DNA of 20,594 bases from a virus, in the IMG/VR virus record IMGVR_UViG_3300010318_000077, positions 1 through 20,594 of that record. One strand, 5' to 3'. The position numbers were made by a program, and so were the translations under genes. The notes beneath the pieces are model-generated. The model saw only the letters and a list, made by a program, of their open reading frames with translations. It did not search any database and was not told the DNA's origin. Position 1 is the stretch's first letter; each line of letters opens with the position of its first letter. Positions 11,637 through 19,269 of this stretch are shown here, one piece after another.

Positions 11637-13871
11637 TTAATAACTCCATTGATACAAGCTACTAATACCAGTTGGATTTGTAACACTGTACAAACTACGA
11701 CTAGTCATATCAGTTCGTTGCCTTTGTTGATTGGATGCTGCTGCTTGCTGTAACATCAAAGTTACGAATGGGTTTTGTGCTGGAGCTCCTGGTGGTGCTG
11801 GAGCAGCAGGGGTTAGCAATGGATTTGCTGCCTGTGCTCTTGGGTCGGATCCAGGTAGAGCAACTGGTGGTTGGTTGGCAACCTGAGGCATAGCGGCACC
11901 CTCTACTGAGTTAGCAGATCCAGCAGCACCGTGAGCAAGTCTAACGTTGGTGCCAATGATACGTGCTGTCCTACCACTACCACCACTAATATCATTAGTA
12001 ACATTGGTAACTTTGAGTGGGAATTTGAGTCTCATGTTACCATTCTGTGACTCTTGCATATCAATGCCACCCTGAGTTCTTCCAGGTTTTGTGTGTGCTT
12101 GCTGTTCGGCAGCAATCTGGGCATCTAATGTAGATGGGTTAGCATACTGTTTAATGTTACCAAAGTATACTCTAGATCCTCTATTCAACATCATTGTTGC
12201 TGATGTCTTGGCTACTGCTCTAGACTGTGCCCATCCAGCAGCATCATTAGATGGAGGAGTTAAATGATAGTGTGTGGCATATCCGCTATTAGTATTCTGT
12301 CCACCCTCACTACCTAAACCAGAACCACCTTGAATAAAACCACCAGGACCATTGGGATCTTGTGCTTGAATAGTTTCTCCCGCCCTCATGCTAGCACCGA
12401 GATCAGCACCACCAGCACCAGGAGGAGCTGTTGGAGATCCACTAGGACTAGTGCCATCACTACCAGTTTCGGATTCTGATTCTCCGTCAAAATATTTTGT
12501 TGGATCAAACGTTGCTGCCTGAGCAGAACCTCCAAACATGGAAGTGACCAGGGTTGCTGGCAATCCAAATGCCCCAGCAAGAGGAGCAGCAATAGGATTA
12601 ATGACTGGCTTTAACATGTCGCCAAGTCCACCAAGTTTTTTCATCACGTTAGACAGGAGACCCAGCATTAATCCACCACCCACTTGTGATGGTAGTTGCA
12701 TGACCTTGGACATCGGATCTGTAATGTCTTTACCAGCAGATCCTTCCCCTGCTGCTTTAAACATTTTACCCATACTGTTATTCCTATTGAGAGGAATAAC
12801 ACTATCTCCAGGATTTAATTTAGTAACAGTAGGATTGTCTACAATACCACCTGATGCCATTTTTACTGGGGCAGATGGCATCCTAGGAGTGAATCCGCCA
12901 CCACCAAACATACCACCACGGTCACCAGCACCCTTTGCTGCCCATGGTGTGGGAGAATTCATTGGTTGGGGACCAATAGGATTAGTGTATTGTGTTTTGC
13001 CTGCTTTATTTTTACCACCACCAAACAGTTTCATTAATTTGCCACCCCAGTCCATCACAGTACCTAGGATGCCACCACCTTTTACTTCTTCATTTCCAGG
13101 TCCAGCAGCAGCAAGATTATCACTACGATCAATCTGATTCTCCATGCTATCTTCTTTAGCAGTGGCTTCAGCATCTTCTCGTTGGTCTAATGCCAATTCT
13201 AGTTGACCAGTCTCAATAGTATTCTCTGTTTCTTTTAGATCATTATCTTTATTAAAATATTCTTTAATTGCTTGTAAACCAGCAGTTATATTAGATAAGA
13301 ACTTGCTGTTATCACTATCATTAACTACACTCTTTTTCTCTTCGGAAGCAAGCGATGACACACGATCAGCAATGCTATCATAAGACTTAGCAACTTTATC
13401 AAATGCTCTCTCTAATATGTTTGGTGTTTTTTCTTCCCCAGCTGATTCTAATCCAGGAATCGTAGGTTGATATGGTGTCTCGGGTTCGACTGGTGTTTCT
13501 GCTGGGTTGACTCTATCTAATACAGCAGAAAACCTTTGCTCTTTTGTTAAAGCAGGGTCGTTAGCAGCAGAAGGATCCTTAGAGAATGTTCCTTTCAGTC
13601 TTCTTGCTCTATCACCACCAAACTCAGACATCATTGACTTGAAGAAGAAGGATCCTTTCCTACCTCCCTGTTGTTCTGTTAAAAAATCTAACCTCTCTTG
13701 TTCTTCGTCGGTGAGACTTTGTTTTTCCTGTAAAGATTTAATCTCTTCGTCTCTTGATTTTCTTTCTGCCGCTGCCATCTTTGCAGCATTTCCTACCTTG
13801 CTGGCAATGTAACCAGAGAGTGATTCTTTATCTGAATATGGACTAGTAGCTCTAAGAAAACCGTGTGCCAT
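11637..13871 (-). CDS. Tape-measure/hub-like structural protein, paralogue of the 1052-aa protein
   Basis: A 744-residue protein, mostly low-complexity Ala/Gly/Pro. Residues about 79-122 (EFGGDRARRLKGTFSK-PSAANDPAL--EQRF) are clearly homologous to residues about 262-309 of the neighbouring 1052-aa protein. The helical linker ending EDSMEN-IDRSDNL also matches that protein's EASMEKGSDLSDNL. ASGGIVDNP--TKLNPGDSVIPLNRN is a motif common in tape-measure proteins. The C-terminal third has a HYHLTPPS / GGIDMQ stretch I cannot assign; it might be a metal-binding or peptidase-like fold. Late promoter at 13895; ribosome site AGGGGAAAG about 11 nt before the ATG. T4 gp29 (hub/tape measure) is the closest positional counterpart, but I see no convincing sequence match. 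Confidence 0.75.
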   Translation of the reverse strand: MAHGFLRATSPYSDKESLSGYIASKVGNAAKMAAAERKSRDEEIKSLQEKQSLTDEEQERLDFLTEQQGGRKGSFFFKSMMSEFGGDRARRLKGTFSKDPSAANDPALTKEQRFSAVLDRVNPAETPVEPETPYQPTIPGLESAGEEKTPNILERAFDKVAKSYDSIADRVSSLASEEKKSVVNDSDNSKFLSNITAGLQAIKEYFNKDNDLKETENTIETGQLELALDQREDAEATAKEDSMENQIDRSDNLAAAGPGNEEVKGGGILGTVMDWGGKLMKLFGGGKNKAGKTQYTNPIGPQPMNSPTPWAAKGAGDRGGMFGGGGFTPRMPSAPVKMASGGIVDNPTVTKLNPGDSVIPLNRNNSMGKMFKAAGEGSAGKDITDPMSKVMQLPSQVGGGLMLGLLSNVMKKLGGLGDMLKPVINPIAAPLAGAFGLPATLVTSMFGGSAQAATFDPTKYFDGESESETGSDGTSPSGSPTAPPGAGGADLGASMRAGETIQAQDPNGPGGFIQGGSGLGSEGGQNTNSGYATHYHLTPPSNDAAGWAQSRAVAKTSATMMLNRGSRVYFGNIKQYANPSTLDAQIAAEQQAHTKPGRTQGGIDMQESQNGNMRLKFPLKVTNVTNDISGGSGRTARIIGTNVRLAHGAAGSANSVEGAAMPQVANQPPVALPGSDPRAQAANPLLTPAAPAPPGAPAQNPFVTLMLQQAAASNQQRQRTDMTSRSLYSVTNPTGISSLYQWSY

Positions 13872-13894: not shown

Positions 13895-13902
13895 TATTTA
13901 TC
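13895..13902 (-). promoter_or_regulatory. Late promoter -10 box (GATAAATA) of the 744-aa gene
   Basis: GATAAATATG on the minus strand, 24 bp before the ATG at 13871. The box contains the stop codon (TAA, 13898-13900) of the upstream 1052-aa gene, so promoter and gene end are fused. It lies in the only intergenic gap between the two paralogues. Confidence 0.7.
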
Positions 13903-16900
13903 GGACACCCAAAGAAAGTCTTCTCAGTTCCTCGTATGATGTGAATGGAAGTGCTGATGTTTGAGGTTGTGAGTAACTAAAGATAGAACTAGGTTGAGAA
14001 GCTGGTGGTGCCTGTGAAAGTAGAGGGAGAGTCAAGACACTTGGTTGTGTTGGTGGGAGCAATGGTTGTGGTGGTGCAGGTTGCTGAGCAACGGGAACGG
14101 CAGGTGGAGCAGCGGCACCAGCACTGGCATTAAAAGCAGATTCTCCAGCACCGATTCTCTTAGACATTGATGCTGCCAGTTCATGTGCTCCAGCTCTTTC
14201 TACTTCATGAGCAAATCCCCTAGTCTTACTAGCAATGTCTGGACCATAAGCCATTGCCTTTTGGAATTGAGAAGTCTCGTATTGGTTGCCACCCTTAAGT
14301 TCCCAAGCAATGTAATCTAATTGTACACCCAAATCAGTTGGCGATTTGCCTTTCTCTCTAGCAAACGAAATGAGTTTGGCTTTTCTTCCATCCGTCCATT
14401 GCATCAAACCAAAAGCACCAGACTTTGGATTGACAGCACCAGTATTGAATGAGGATTCTGCCCAAAGATTGCCGACAATGGCAGATGCCTCTTCTCTAGT
14501 GAATCCACGTGACATTAATCCCGTCACAAGTTCTCCTGCCTTAGCAGTTTCTCCCTCGCCCAAGGGGATTCCTGTAACAGGAACTGGACTGATACCACTA
14601 GACCTAGATCCTTTTTTACCAATTTTTTTCTTACGTTTTTTAAATAATTTTGCTAACCATCCGAGTGGTCCTGTCCCTTCTTCTTTTTTATCTTCTATCT
14701 GTGGGATAGATCCTTTACCAATTTCAGTTTCCATAGGAGATACTGGAAGATTCAAAGACTTGGCAATTGGATCTGTAGTCTGTCTCACAAAATTCTCGAT
14801 AGGATCTGCCCATGTACCAGCACGTTTGGTAACTTCTCTGGCAGCAAGGATCATTGGAGCTAAAGATTGTAATGGGTTGACTGCTCCCATACCATTTCTC
14901 AGCAGCATTTCTGGTCCAGCCTCACCAATCATAGCATTGACACCACCATCAGCAAGTTTTACAGTGCCACCTTCCGACATTTTCTCTGTGCCATAAATCC
15001 AATTCTGATATCCATCCCTCATCTTCTCGAAGATGTTTCTTCTATCAGAACCTTGTACAAGTTGTGGGATGGATCCATCAGAAGGCATAACAGACTTAGG
15101 TTCCCCAGAAGAGAATCCTAAACCAGACATCACATTAGCAGGATCATTTCTTTCTTCGTATGCTGCTCGATTTTTACTTGCTAGCATCTTGCCACCTTCG
15201 CCAAGCAACTCGCCAGCAAGGAATCCCCATCCAATAGGACCAGGAATCATACTACCAGCGGCAAGTGCTGCTCCAAGATAATCACCCTCGGCAAGTCTAG
15301 ATGCTGTTAAAGCGCCACCAATAACAACGTTTGCTCCAGGTAAGAACCTAGAAACAGTTTTTCCTACTGGAGATTTAGCAGCGGCTCCTAACATTCCTTT
15401 TCCAGGAATCTTATTTAATATTCCGCCAGCTTTAGAAAGAAATCCACCACCTCTAGCAACTTTAGCAGTATCACCAGCAGCATCAACAGCCTTAACAGCA
15501 TTAGTTGCTTTATTACCACCGAAGATATTTCTCAAACCTTGGAAAGGTTTCTTGTTTTTCATCCAGTTGTTAACTCCTTTAACTCCTGGGATCTTCTTGA
15601 GTTTTTGTTTAGTTAATCTCTTAATTGCTTTCCATGTTTTACCAGGATTTTTAAGTCTTCTCCCCCACTTTTTAAGATTCTTGAGCCATTTAAAAGGATC
15701 AGGACCATCACCACCATCATCTTGTTTTTCGGGTGGTTCGAGTCCATTCTCATTAAAAAGATTGTCACTAAGATCCGAACCTTTCTCCATGGATGCTTCT
15801 TTAGCATTCACTTTATCATCCTGAGCAATGTCAAAAAGTAAATCTAATTGCTGTTGTTTTACATCATTAATTTTATTCTGAGTATCGACATTCTTAAGAA
15901 CAGATTTCTTTAGATCATCAACAACACTGGATAGTTTAGAAAGATCAGATTGTACTGAAGATTTTTTTGTTTCAATAAGATTACGAAACTTATTATCTAC
16001 TCTCTCGAAAGAAGATTGTAGTTTATTAATACCATCAGATACTACTTTAGATACACCAGTCTTAGTAGTGTATTGATTAGTATTAAAAAGTTCTCCCTGT
16101 TTTGTGGGAGGTGGTGTGATATCAGAATTAATGCCAGCAAGAAATCTTTGATCCGCTGATAACGCTGGATCCTTTGCTGCTACAGGTGACTTAGAAAATG
16201 TTCCTTGTAACCTGTTTATTCTGTCGCCACCAAATTCAAAACCTAATGCTTTAGTTAGATAATGTACTCTACCCTTTTCATCAGCACCTTGTTCCTTAGC
16301 AATACGTCTTGCTTCAGCAGCACGACCAAATGATTTCTTAAGTTTGAGTCCAACAAATGATGATAATGTTTTTGCTTTCCAAGGATCATCACTCTTGCCA
16401 AAAGATGCTTTAACTTTCTTGGATTTTTTTATTAATACTTCTTTCTTTTTTCTTACCTTAGGTGGGGATCCAGGGTCTGGATTTCTAATGTTATCCAGCA
16501 GATCATCCAACCTATTATCAAAAGACTCTGCCATTCTTGTGGCAGCATCTTTCTTTTGTTGGCGATTAATTCTTGACTTAGGAATTGTATTCCTAACTCT
16601 TGGCAACTTAACTCTACGAGGAGCACCAGTCGTTTCTGGATTCTCAAATGGTGCTTCTACTCTAACTACAATGGGTTCGTCAGGTTCTTTCTGCTCTACC
16701 TCTACAACTTCAATCTCTACAGGAATTTCTTCTGGTTCCTGTGTAGTCTTGGGAGTATCAACTAAGTACCTATCAATAATCCACTCTTGATATTCTCTCT
16801 CTGCTTCACCACTAGTGCTACCAGTTTGAAGCATGGGATATCCATCTTCATCCTGCTTCATGTTAGCGATGATCTTATCAGCATCGCTACTAGATAAACT

Positions 16901-17056
16901 TCTATCGTGTAATTTAAAATAACTGGTGCCGCTATCGTCTTTGCCACCAATTAGTTTTGCCTTAACTCTATTAAAGATACGATCGTTCTGCCCACCACCA
17001 GCCACGCCTGGTCTATACCATTCTACTGATGCTGGTGCTGGTAGGGTGAACTTCAT
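13898..17056 (-). CDS. Tape-measure-like hub protein with C-terminal tail lysozyme domain
   Basis: A 1052-residue protein. About 262-309 is the domain shared with the 744-aa protein. About 316-400 is predicted helical (NKLQSSFERVDNKF, DLSKLSSVVDDLKKSV). About 559-622 is a Gly/Ala hydrophobic stretch (GALTASRLAEGDYLGAALAAG). About 692-722 is the EGG-V-LADGGVNAMIGEAGPEMLL motif typical of tape-measure proteins. About 837-972 resembles the Phage_lysozyme2 family: EEASAIVGNLWAESSFNTGA with candidate catalytic E867, then GAFGLMQWTDGRKAKL. A Pro/Ala-rich tail follows. It likely threads the tail tube and cuts peptidoglycan during DNA entry (inferred). The ATG overlaps the stop of the 58-aa ORF (ATGA), and it lies right after the gp26/58-aa pair, where tape-measure genes usually sit. 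Confidence 0.8.
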   Translation of the reverse strand: MKFTLPAPASVEWYRPGVAGGGQNDRIFNRVKAKLIGGKDDSGTSYFKLHDRSLSSSDADKIIANMKQDEDGYPMLQTGSTSGEAEREYQEWIIDRYLVDTPKTTQEPEEIPVEIEVVEVEQKEPDEPIVVRVEAPFENPETTGAPRRVKLPRVRNTIPKSRINRQQKKDAATRMAESFDNRLDDLLDNIRNPDPGSPPKVRKKKEVLIKKSKKVKASFGKSDDPWKAKTLSSFVGLKLKKSFGRAAEARRIAKEQGADEKGRVHYLTKALGFEFGGDRINRLQGTFSKSPVAAKDPALSADQRFLAGINSDITPPPTKQGELFNTNQYTTKTGVSKVVSDGINKLQSSFERVDNKFRNLIETKKSSVQSDLSKLSSVVDDLKKSVLKNVDTQNKINDVKQQQLDLLFDIAQDDKVNAKEASMEKGSDLSDNLFNENGLEPPEKQDDGGDGPDPFKWLKNLKKWGRRLKNPGKTWKAIKRLTKQKLKKIPGVKGVNNWMKNKKPFQGLRNIFGGNKATNAVKAVDAAGDTAKVARGGGFLSKAGGILNKIPGKGMLGAAAKSPVGKTVSRFLPGANVVIGGALTASRLAEGDYLGAALAAGSMIPGPIGWGFLAGELLGEGGKMLASKNRAAYEERNDPANVMSGLGFSSGEPKSVMPSDGSIPQLVQGSDRRNIFEKMRDGYQNWIYGTEKMSEGGTVKLADGGVNAMIGEAGPEMLLRNGMGAVNPLQSLAPMILAAREVTKRAGTWADPIENFVRQTTDPIAKSLNLPVSPMETEIGKGSIPQIEDKKEEGTGPLGWLAKLFKKRKKKIGKKGSRSSGISPVPVTGIPLGEGETAKAGELVTGLMSRGFTREEASAIVGNLWAESSFNTGAVNPKSGAFGLMQWTDGRKAKLISFAREKGKSPTDLGVQLDYIAWELKGGNQYETSQFQKAMAYGPDIASKTRGFAHEVERAGAHELAASMSKRIGAGESAFNASAGAAAPPAVPVAQQPAPPQPLLPPTQPSVLTLPLLSQAPPASQPSSIFSYSQPQTSALPFTSYEELRRLSLGVR

Positions 17057-17229
17057 CTTTGTGCTGCTTTTCTAGCTTCTTCTTGTTCTTTAATCCAAGC
17101 ATTCAATAGGGAAACATAAACAGTCCTTTCCCATGGCATCATATTTTCAATCTCTGTCAATGAATATTTATGGTGTTGCATGAGAGAGAAGTTTGTTCTA
17201 TAATAGTTCTCTAGAGTATTATAGAACAT
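17053..17229 (-). CDS. 58-aa ORF, candidate frameshift partner of gp26 (tail assembly chaperone-like)
   Basis: A 58-residue protein starting MFYNTLENYYRTNFSLMQHH and including SLTEIENMMPWERTVYVSLL and a charged C-terminal helix (KEQEEARKAAQR). The ATG lies 2 nt after the gp26 stop (TAAGCATG) with GGA 5 nt upstream, so independent starts are possible. It is in the -1 frame of gp26, and a slippery heptamer at 17238-17244 plus hairpin 17194-17228 would fuse it to gp26. Its stop overlaps the next ATG. By position it may be what some cyanophage annotations call gp51, but I am not sure. ENMMPWER-VY resembles small downstream tail-chaperone frames from memory. Confidence 0.75.
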   Translation of the reverse strand: MFYNTLENYYRTNFSLMQHHKYSLTEIENMMPWERTVYVSLLNAWIKEQEEARKAAQR

Positions 17230-17244
17230 GCTTATCCGAAAAAA
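17194..17244 (-). promoter_or_regulatory. Candidate programmed -1 ribosomal frameshift signal
   Basis: In the gp26 frame, codons TCT TTT TTC form the heptamer T TTT TTC (17244-17238). A 9-nt spacer (17237-17229) and then a perfect 12-bp stem (17228-17217 with 17205-17194, TGTTCTATAATA / TATTATAGAACA) with an 11-nt loop follow. A -1 slip reads RIS and then the 58-aa ORF in frame, giving a fusion of about 301 aa. The 3 bases of the downstream ATG lie at the foot of the stem. Confidence 0.8.
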
Positions 17245-17957
17245 GACTGTAAGCCCTCCAACGTATAGGTAGAAGTAACTCCAGTGTTTGGATTGGTGAC
17301 TTCAAGTTCGTGCTTGAGTACAGGCATGGTCTCAAAGAACTGCTGTACTTTCTCGAACTGCTGTTGTGTCATACCATCCAGGAAAGTAATGATCTGATCA
17401 AGTTTCATATCAGCAGCGTCCCAAACCTCTTCACCTTGGAAGATTTGATCCACACACTTAGCGATAAGCACAAACAACTCATCAGTAGTTGTAAGATCTT
17501 TATTAAGAAGAGTGATTTGAATGAACTGATCGATACCAGGATACTTCATAATCATTCCAACATCATCCTGTAGAATGATCTTATTCGTGTGTCCTTCTGG
17601 TTTCTGTACTTGAACATCATCAATATTAATATCAACCGTAACTTGAGTGACACCATCGTCAATACAAGTTACCCTCATTTTAATATCTTCACCAGCAGAT
17701 ACCGAACGGATCTTCAGGAAAATATATTCTAAATCAAATGATGCTAGGTTATCAATCTTGATCCCTCTACTGAGGATACAATTCTTGAGGGTATCTTTTA
17801 CAGCAGACTCAATTTCTTTTGGGTCTTCTGATTCCATAGCAAGGAGTAAAATCTTTTCTTCCTTGACTAAGAATGGTCTGTATTTGATTGTTTTCCCAGT
17901 CGATGGTAGTGCCAATTCATATGATGGCACTGACAAAGTAGGTAATTGTGATGGCAT
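17232..17957 (-). CDS. 26: gp26-like baseplate hub assembly protein
   Basis: A 241-residue protein with the T4_baseplate (gp26) family signature: GKTIKYRPFLVKEEKILLLAMES at about 21-43, then EIESAVKDTLKNCI, DLEYIFLKIRSVSAGE, and a second helical half ending MTQQQFEKVQQFFETMPVLKHE. T4 gp26 (208 aa) is a minor hub assembly protein. Late promoter at 17981, 24 bp upstream of the ATG. Its final codons carry the slippery heptamer of the candidate frameshift, so two forms (241 aa and a ~301-aa fusion) are predicted. Followed by the 58-aa ORF and the tape-measure-like gene, the same order as chaperone/tape-measure loci in lambda-type phages. Confidence 0.85.
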   Translation of the reverse strand: MPSQLPTLSVPSYELALPSTGKTIKYRPFLVKEEKILLLAMESEDPKEIESAVKDTLKNCILSRGIKIDNLASFDLEYIFLKIRSVSAGEDIKMRVTCIDDGVTQVTVDINIDDVQVQKPEGHTNKIILQDDVGMIMKYPGIDQFIQITLLNKDLTTTDELFVLIAKCVDQIFQGEEVWDAADMKLDQIITFLDGMTQQQFEKVQQFFETMPVLKHELEVTNPNTGVTSTYTLEGLQSFFG

Positions 17958-17989: not shown

Positions 17990-18796
17990 TCACTTCTTAC
18001 CTCTCCATTGAGTAACATCATTATAGATGATGGAGTACTTGCTGTAGTAGAAGTTAGCAGTAACTTTAGTTATCTGAGATGCTCCGTAAGAAAGAGGTAC
18101 AGCATCAATAGAATATGGAAACACATCCATCAATGTATACATCATAGATGACCTTTGGTTTGGTGCCAGGTCACCTTTCTCTGTCTTGACAATAGTTACA
18201 TTACATTGATACTCTTCTGGAAATCTTAATCTGATAGACTTGTCGGCACTAGATCTAGTACCATTCATATCTTTATTCTTTAATTGCTCTAGACTTTGAC
18301 TAGCAACAGAGTATGCCGATGTCCCAGATCCTGATTCTCCCAAGACTTCTTGACCCTTGGGATCATACTCAGAAAAAATAAATCCATACCAAGCATTGAG
18401 AAACTTGAGTGGTGTCATGTTAGCATCACACATCCAACCCAATTGGAAGTCAGTATATAATTTAGTGTGAGCATAGTTTACAGAACCTTCACCCATACGA
18501 TACCCAGAGAGCTGTCCCGTAGCTGCTTGTACGTTCGGTAGTTGTGCTTCCTCACAAAACATTTTCATAAGACTTGGAGTTGTAGTATCCATGTCTTCAT
18601 CGGTAGCACGCTGCATCCCCGTGGCAGTCATCTTCAATCCTAGACCATTAAATCTATCAAGCAGATCTTTATTTGCTCCCGTAGGTGAAGGAAATACAAA
18701 TTCCACATCAAAATTATTACTGTAAGACATACCGCCTTGCTGGGCGATGGTCTCTAGAAAGATTCCTAAACTTTTATCTTTTCTTGTTGATGCCAC
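17990..18796 (-). CDS. Tail tube/tube-initiator-like protein (gp54/gp19 family candidate)
   Basis: A 268-residue protein with tail-tube-type beta sequence: NNFDVEFVFPSP near 25-37; LPNVQAATGQLSGYRMGEGSV-YAHTKLYTDFQLGW in the middle; KFLNAWYGFIFS; and a C-terminal YTLMDVFPYSIDAVPLSYGASQITKVTANFYYS, close to the ends of T4 gp19 and gp54 tube proteins. T4 gp54 is the tube initiator on the baseplate; length and place in the hub cluster favour gp54. No clean ribosome site: the GTG start at 18796 has AGG directly against it. A later ATG (MSYSNNFDV, preceded by AAGGCGG) is an alternative. Promoter box at 18824, overlapping the divergent gp4 leader. Confidence 0.6.
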   Translation of the reverse strand: MASTRKDKSLGIFLETIAQQGGMSYSNNFDVEFVFPSPTGANKDLLDRFNGLGLKMTATGMQRATDEDMDTTTPSLMKMFCEEAQLPNVQAATGQLSGYRMGEGSVNYAHTKLYTDFQLGWMCDANMTPLKFLNAWYGFIFSEYDPKGQEVLGESGSGTSAYSVASQSLEQLKNKDMNGTRSSADKSIRLRFPEEYQCNVTIVKTEKGDLAPNQRSSMMYTLMDVFPYSIDAVPLSYGASQITKVTANFYYSKYSIIYNDVTQWRGKK

Positions 18797-18797
18797 C

Positions 18798-18804
18798 CTA
18801 AATA
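18798..18804 (+). promoter_or_regulatory. Late promoter -10 box (CTAAATA) of the gp4 operon
   Basis: CTAAATA on the plus strand, 27 bp before the gp4 ATG at 18832. It lies inside the 5' end of the divergent minus gene's leader region (its GTG is at 18796). Confidence 0.7.
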
Positions 18805-18829
18805 AAAATAGTTGGTCCAACTATATTTA
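18803..18829. promoter_or_regulatory. 13-bp imperfect palindrome between divergent late promoters
   Basis: Two arms (18803-18815 and 18817-18829) match as reverse complements at 12 of 13 positions around one central base, with the inner 8 bp perfect (ATAGTTGG / CCAACTAT). It covers the gp4 leader and both late boxes. It could be a DNA operator or an RNA hairpin with a 3-5-nt loop just before the ATG. Confidence 0.7.
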
Positions 18830-18831: not shown

Positions 18832-19269
18832 ATGGCATACTCTGGAATTTATAAACCAACAAACCCCTCAAAATATAGGGGCAATCCCACTAGAATTATC
18901 TATCGTTCCATGTGGGAAAGAAAGTTTATGTTTTTCTGTGATCATAATGTTAGCATAGTTGAGTGGGGTAGTGAGGAAGTAATCATTCCTTATCGTTGTC
19001 CCACTGACGGTAGGGTACACAGATATTATCCAGACTTCTATATTAAAGTTAAGTCCAAGACTGGAGTGATCAGTAAGTATCTTATTGAAGTAAAACCCAA
19101 GAAACAAACACAAGCACCGAATGAAAATCCAAAACGTAAGACTGCCTCTTGGAAGAGGGAAGTCCTAACCTACGCTAAGAACCGCGCTAAGTGGGAGGCA
19201 GCAGAGGACTTCTGTGAGGACAGGCAGATGAAATTTTTAATCCTCACCGAAGAACACTTAGGAGTCTAA
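18832..19269 (+). CDS. 4: gp4-like head completion nuclease-type protein
   Basis: A 145-residue protein, close to T4 gp4 in length and motifs (KPTNPSKYRG-PT-IIYRSMWERKF, then EWGSEEVIIPY, HRYYPDFYIKV and YLIEVKPKKQT-AP). The PD (67-68) ... E86-V-K88 arrangement with E29 upstream resembles a PD-(D/E)xK nuclease core. In T4, gp4 acts in head completion before tail joining; whether this copy cuts DNA is unproven. No Shine-Dalgarno is visible in its 20-base leader, which instead contains the ATAGTTGG palindrome. The gene is followed after 2 nt by the 229-aa gene, which has AGGAG inside the gp4 end. Confidence 0.85.
   Translation: MAYSGIYKPTNPSKYRGNPTRIIYRSMWERKFMFFCDHNVSIVEWGSEEVIIPYRCPTDGRVHRYYPDFYIKVKSKTGVISKYLIEVKPKKQTQAPNENPKRKTASWKREVLTYAKNRAKWEAAEDFCEDRQMKFLILTEEHLGV

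Follow-up and report, generated by a model that had tools for sequence, protein, structure and literature searches.

Does the small open reading frame (ORF) that follows gene 26 in this viral DNA encode a protein of its own, as the annotation of its relatives has it, or is it the second part of a longer gp26 protein made by ribosomal frameshifting? The window, meaning the whole stretch of 20,594 nt that was analysed, is IMG/VR record IMGVR_UViG_3300010318_000077, which is itself a 20.6-kb fragment. From comparison of the sequences we consider it highly likely that a T4-like cyanophage encodes its tail assembly chaperones in this region, with gp26 as the short form and a predicted 301-aa fusion arising from a minority -1 slip that is probably aided by stimulators.

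Anatomy of the gp26 locus

The gp26 gene lies on the minus strand (17232–17957), as do all features below unless stated otherwise, and encodes 241 aa that match Pfam T4_baseplate (PF12322, E=9.6e-71) and phrog_150. Its 3' end reads TCT TTT TTC GGA TAA. The slippery heptamer TTTTTTC (U UUU UUC in the mRNA; 17238–17244) starts on the third base of a codon, as the X XXY YYZ register demands, and the TAA stop (17232–17234) stands one codon past it. The heptamer is followed by the 9 nt GGAUAAGCA and then by a perfect 12-bp stem (UGUUCUAUAAUA/UAUUAUAGAACA) with the 11-nt loop CUCUAGAGAAC, the hairpin spanning 17194–17228. The initial annotation had described this in-register heptamer, spacer and hairpin, and each element was recovered where it had been placed (17244–17194). 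A Shine–Dalgarno (SD)-like GGAGGG 9 nt upstream of the heptamer (17254–17259) was absent from that annotation.

The -1 frame is open for 72 nt upstream of the ATG of the 58-aa ORF (17053–17229), into conserved protein. Gp26 residues 1–240 joined to the 61 residues that begin RISM give a predicted fusion of 301 aa (17053–17957), the length that had been estimated beside the 241-aa gp26. The 58-aa ORF, called “gp51” in the annotation of relatives, matches phrog_634 (E=4.4e-28) and positions 240–278 of phrog_150. It has no direct Pfam match to any chaperone family; a search of NCBIfam returned no relevant match, and one of Rfam nothing above gathering scores.

The gene order is tail tube, gp26, 58-aa ORF and tape-measure-like protein. 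The tail tube gene (17990–18820; Phage_TTP_2, E=2.4e-50) is directly upstream of gp26, and the 1052-aa protein directly downstream (13898–17056), with a tail lysozyme domain (Phage_lysozyme2, E=2.6e-26), would be the presumed client of the chaperones. Its putative role as tape measure draws on a match to the phrog_9570 tape measure (E=3.4e-21) that falls in the lysozyme region. Within this protein the Phage_lysozyme2 domain occupies residues 842–976. Both the 1052-aa protein and its 744-aa neighbour (11637–13871, minus strand) match phrog_5453 (compare FGGDRINRLQGTFSKSPVAAKDPALSADQRF with FGGDRARRLKGTFSKDPSAANDPALTKEQRF), and this common module suggests a duplication within the tape-measure region. 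On the plus strand, the head closure protein at 18832–19269 (phrog_218, gp4-like) matches a TnsA-like endonuclease N-terminal domain with E=2e-22.

In the mechanism that we propose, most ribosomes would read gp26 to its stop and release the 241-aa short chaperone (TAC-N). A minority would move back by one nucleotide when decoding the U UUU UUC just ahead of the stop, where tRNA-Phe in both the P and the A site would pair again with UUU. Continuing in the -1 frame, these ribosomes would make a long form of 301 aa (TAC-NC); the annotated “58-aa gp51” falls within its 61 C-terminal residues. The slip would probably be aided by the upstream GGAGGG and, in the clade of the window, by the downstream 12-bp hairpin. 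If the pair works as gpG/gpGT does in lambda, the tape measure protein would be coated by the short form, and the long form would bring in subunits of the tail tube.

The second ORF as part of a predicted fusion

Relatives were compared in two sets: 81 loci, of which one is the window and 80 are from IMG/VR, gathered by searching with the 58-aa protein and not with the motif; and 119 distinct sequences, made up of these loci, a further scan and named phages. The sequences share ancestry, so that counts out of 81 and 119 are not independent trials.

As databases annotate it, the 58-aa ORF would be a separate gene, gp51, translated from its own ATG by termination–reinitiation past the gp26 stop (TAAGCATG). 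An ATG does lie 2 nt after that stop, both in the window and in the phages S-PM2, S-RIM32 and S-H9-2, and the public records of these three phages start a separate gp51 there; none of the public cyanophage records that we viewed joins “gp51” to gp26. Against this, annotators disagree on the start: in Syn1, Sf-FP1 and S-RSM4 “gp51” is annotated from an internal ATG, and in S-WAM2 no gene is annotated at all. Moreover, no ATG, GTG or TTG occurs close to where the second ORF begins in 39 of the 81 loci and, over a slightly different search range, in 51 of the 119 distinct sequences; in these 51, frameshifting is therefore the only obvious route by which it could be expressed.

The residues before the ATG tell the same way, in that they keep a fixed length to the core. 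A KYS motif stands at residue 24 after the slip in all 81 loci, and this constant spacing means that the length of the linker is fixed, as expected within one protein. The position of the window's ATG encodes Leu in 48, Met in 16, Phe in 14 and Val in two of the 80 other loci, a pattern that in the alignment looks like a hydrophobic position of the fusion and not like a start codon. Two independent genes would also leave unexplained the in-register heptamer present in 119 of 119 sequences, and we judge this reading very improbable. The reading that best fits the 58-aa ORF is that of a C-terminal portion (TAC-C) in a predicted -1 frameshift product, and to annotate it as a gene “51” of its own is probably a mistake.

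Conservation of the slip site

TTTTTTC alone is frequent in the AT-rich window (14 matches versus 6.6 expected), and since the motif by itself is common, it is its conservation, and not its presence, that excludes chance. T TTT TTN was found in register, directly before or near the gp26 stop, at all 81 loci and in register in all 119 distinct sequences, with 3 nt between heptamer and stop in 109 of the latter. The heptamer ends in TTC at 76 of the 81 loci, in TTA at three and in TTT at two. Among the 119 sequences are those of KVP40 and Stenotrophomonas phage DLP6, which carry the same slip site; T4-like phages of Acidovorax, Cronobacter and Aeromonas likewise have the same heptamer in register. 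Three loci (L075, L072 and L008) naturally have U UUU UUA, which encodes Phe-Leu, in place of U UUU UUC, and Sinorhizobium phage phiM12 has a run of seven T at the junction.

Codon choice around the site is skewed. The codon before Phe-Phe is AAT, AGT, TCT, GAT or GCT, so that the amino acid varies (Asn, Ser, Asp or Ala) while the final T is invariant; third-base T is present here at 81 of 81 loci, versus 39.5% of codons in the bodies of these gp26 genes. The first Phe is TTT at 81 of 81 loci (71% of Phe codons in the gp26 bodies), and the second is TTC in 76 of 78 cases (29% TTC usage in the gp26 bodies).

Transcriptional slippage on the homopolymer T run at the joint, giving an mRNA population that joins gp26 to the 58-aa frame, would result equally in a fusion protein. 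Efficient slippage of this kind in bacteria normally needs runs longer than six T, whereas the run is exactly six T followed by C in 110 of the 119 sequences; what has been conserved is a ribosomal feature, the X XXY YYZ register, and hairpins exist downstream. We regard slippage during transcription as highly improbable. That the heptamer is a by-product of a Phe-Phe pair conserved near the gp26 C-terminus, with no recoding role, is the least credible reading and can practically be dismissed: FF is indeed conserved in the protein, but neither Phe codon follows the usage of the gp26 bodies, the codon ahead of them has T as its last base whichever amino acid it encodes, and gp26 of Erwinia phage Gravdalen (GAATTCTTTAAG), a T4-group phage with a separate fused gene, keeps FF and not the heptamer.

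In Vibrio phage K475 (L090:3657-3735), a gp26-like gene and a -1 ORF meet at a junction with CTTTTTG and an overlapping TAATG, without an X XXY YYZ heptamer. A switch to coupled initiation or to single-tRNA slippage is possible in this phage.

Candidate stimulatory elements

The window's hairpin is predicted to fold with -14.1 kcal/mol (z -3.24 versus dinucleotide shuffles). Among the 10 nearest sequences the stem is kept, with 96.7% of cells paired, and no compensatory change was seen among them; the stem is thus conserved but not proven by covariation. Across the 81 loci, folding downstream of the slip site exceeds that of synonymous resampling with a mean z of -2.0 (z < -2 in 44 of 81), and stems of at least 9 bp occur at 22% of loci versus 4% in the null. 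The position and sequence of the hairpin vary between clades, and about half of the relatives are without a comparable stem. The hairpin is probably a stimulator in the clade of the window, and not a universal one. The initial annotation had proposed to align gp26 ends across T4-like cyanophages and to look for conservation of heptamer, frame offset and hairpin with compensatory changes; the first two turned out to be conserved in nearly every relative compared, while the hairpin is not general and compensatory changes were not found.

A pseudoknot between the hairpin loop and the downstream sequence is not supported: the loop AGAGAA is complementary to a downstream TTCTCT (17185–17210, minus strand), but a connector of 3 nt is too short to bridge the 12-bp stem, and the doubt already voiced on this point was justified. 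By eye, the AGAGAA/TTCTCT complementarity is only partial in several close relatives. In S-PM2, GAAAA and TTTTC are also complementary, both through synonymous changes, again as judged by eye and with too few cases to argue for a pseudoknot.

The upstream GGAGGG may be a second stimulator. Its predicted duplex with the anti-SD sequence (-9.8 kcal/mol) is stronger than that of synonymous alternatives in the window (z -2.6 versus synonymous resampling), and the same holds in part of the family; AGGG is found at the same place upstream of the heptamer in 39 of the 81 loci. Ribosome-binding-site-like motifs 5' of slip sites are discussed as promoters of frameshifting by the authors of PRFect (PMC10885494). 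Neither a hairpin nor an SD-like element was detected at 10 of 80 loci, and the two show no trade-off; if anything they are weakly associated. Tentatively, and with some doubt, we suggest that the slippery heptamer has stayed fixed while its stimulators turn over, so that some clades would rely on hairpins, in varying positions, some on an SD-like element and some on neither of these, and the ratio of short to long chaperone may differ per lineage or host. T4 would then stand at the far end, with recoding replaced by a second gene.

Relation to T4 gp26 and gp51

PF12322 takes in T4 gp26 (208 aa; E=8.8e-64) as well as T4 gp51 (249 aa), and it is T4 gp26 that matches the window's short form. T4 gp51 is a continuous ORF, and the profile of the cyanophage fusion aligns with it from near the start to near the end (hhalign E=1.9e-13), with no gap at the frameshift junction. 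Its C-terminal extension is homologous to the 58-aa ORF (hhalign E=1.6e-6; phrog_634). T4 gp51 thus aligns with the whole of the predicted fusion, the difference being that in T4, gp26 and gp51 are two genes on opposite strands, so that no frameshift is needed.

A search of phage records with the window's gp26 found exactly one gp26-like place in each of 641 matched records, which agrees with the two genes of T4 corresponding to a single cyanophage gene plus a slip. For the window's own genome, the search for a second gp26/gp51 copy covered the 20.6-kb fragment. The proposal that T4-like cyanophages may use a frameshifted chaperone pair made from gp26 draws support from these comparisons: site, register and fusion are kept in nearly every relative, in many relatives the second ORF lacks a usable start, and T4 gp51 corresponds to that fusion in a single gene. 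The initial annotation was very probably right about the mechanism.

Comparison with known tail assembly chaperones

The AlphaFold prediction for the window's gp26 is of good confidence (pLDDT 89), and T4-like gp26 proteins are its best matches among named viral models. In a Foldseek search of the PDB, the HK97 chaperone 2ob9 ranked third and sixth among the 50 matches listed (E=1.6 and 2.9), with the two highest match probabilities among these 50 (0.54 and 0.38), and it was the only tail chaperone among the matches listed. For the predicted model, this suggests a weak likeness to the solved HK97 chaperone.

The order of tube, chaperone gene, ORF and tape measure is also that of phage lambda, whose slip site, G GGA AAG, is unlike the T TTT TTC of the window. 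In lambda gpG/gpGT, the short gene is joined through a -1 slip at its 3' end with the ORF that follows, ahead of the gene for the tape measure (PMC5009743), and the slip predicted in the window is likewise -1, at the 3' end of gp26 and ahead of a tape-measure-like gene. Our Foldseek comparison with the PDB gave no significant sequence or fold similarity to lambda gpG/gpGT.

The tail assembly chaperones of T4-like phages were reportedly identified by Vladimirov, Gautam and Davidson in Virology 2022, 566:9-15, in whose abstract frameshifting is said to appear conserved in several T4-like groups and T4 genes 26 and 51 are said to be named. These chaperones, by inference of the gp26/gp51 family, have short and long forms, as proposed for the window. 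In a later paper, poly-T slippery sequences are given as known in TAC-N genes of T4-like phages (PMC12846349, citing Vladimirov et al. 2022). Another states that some T4-like phages do without frameshifting and have a short gene and a fused gene (PMC10885494, citing Vladimirov et al. 2022); compared with these, the window would use the frameshift version. Pakpunavirus Adele and the Vandenendeviridae also have a poly-T -1 site, conserved where TAC-N ends, and a C-terminal ORF that is usually misannotated as a gene (PMC12846349); they differ from the window in their GTTTTT motif and in belonging to another phage family.

The initial annotation had recognised a lambda-type arrangement and knew of no description of it for T4. 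The arrangement is present, but the idea is not new, the chaperones of T4-like phages having reportedly been identified in 2022 and T4 having been reported with two separate genes. Our literature search, which extended to sources other than the text of Vladimirov et al. 2022, found no description of a gp26 frameshift in cyanophages specifically. The kind of system is known from lambda and several T4-like phages, and the window is a well-supported new case of it.

Implications

The fusion reading would explain the small gene annotated as “gp51, baseplate hub assembly catalyst” in hundreds of cyanophage genomes, which should be annotated as a frameshift product joined with gp26. It also gives independent sequence support for the view that T4 gp26 and gp51, long listed as a part of the baseplate hub and its catalyst, would be the short and long tail assembly chaperones.
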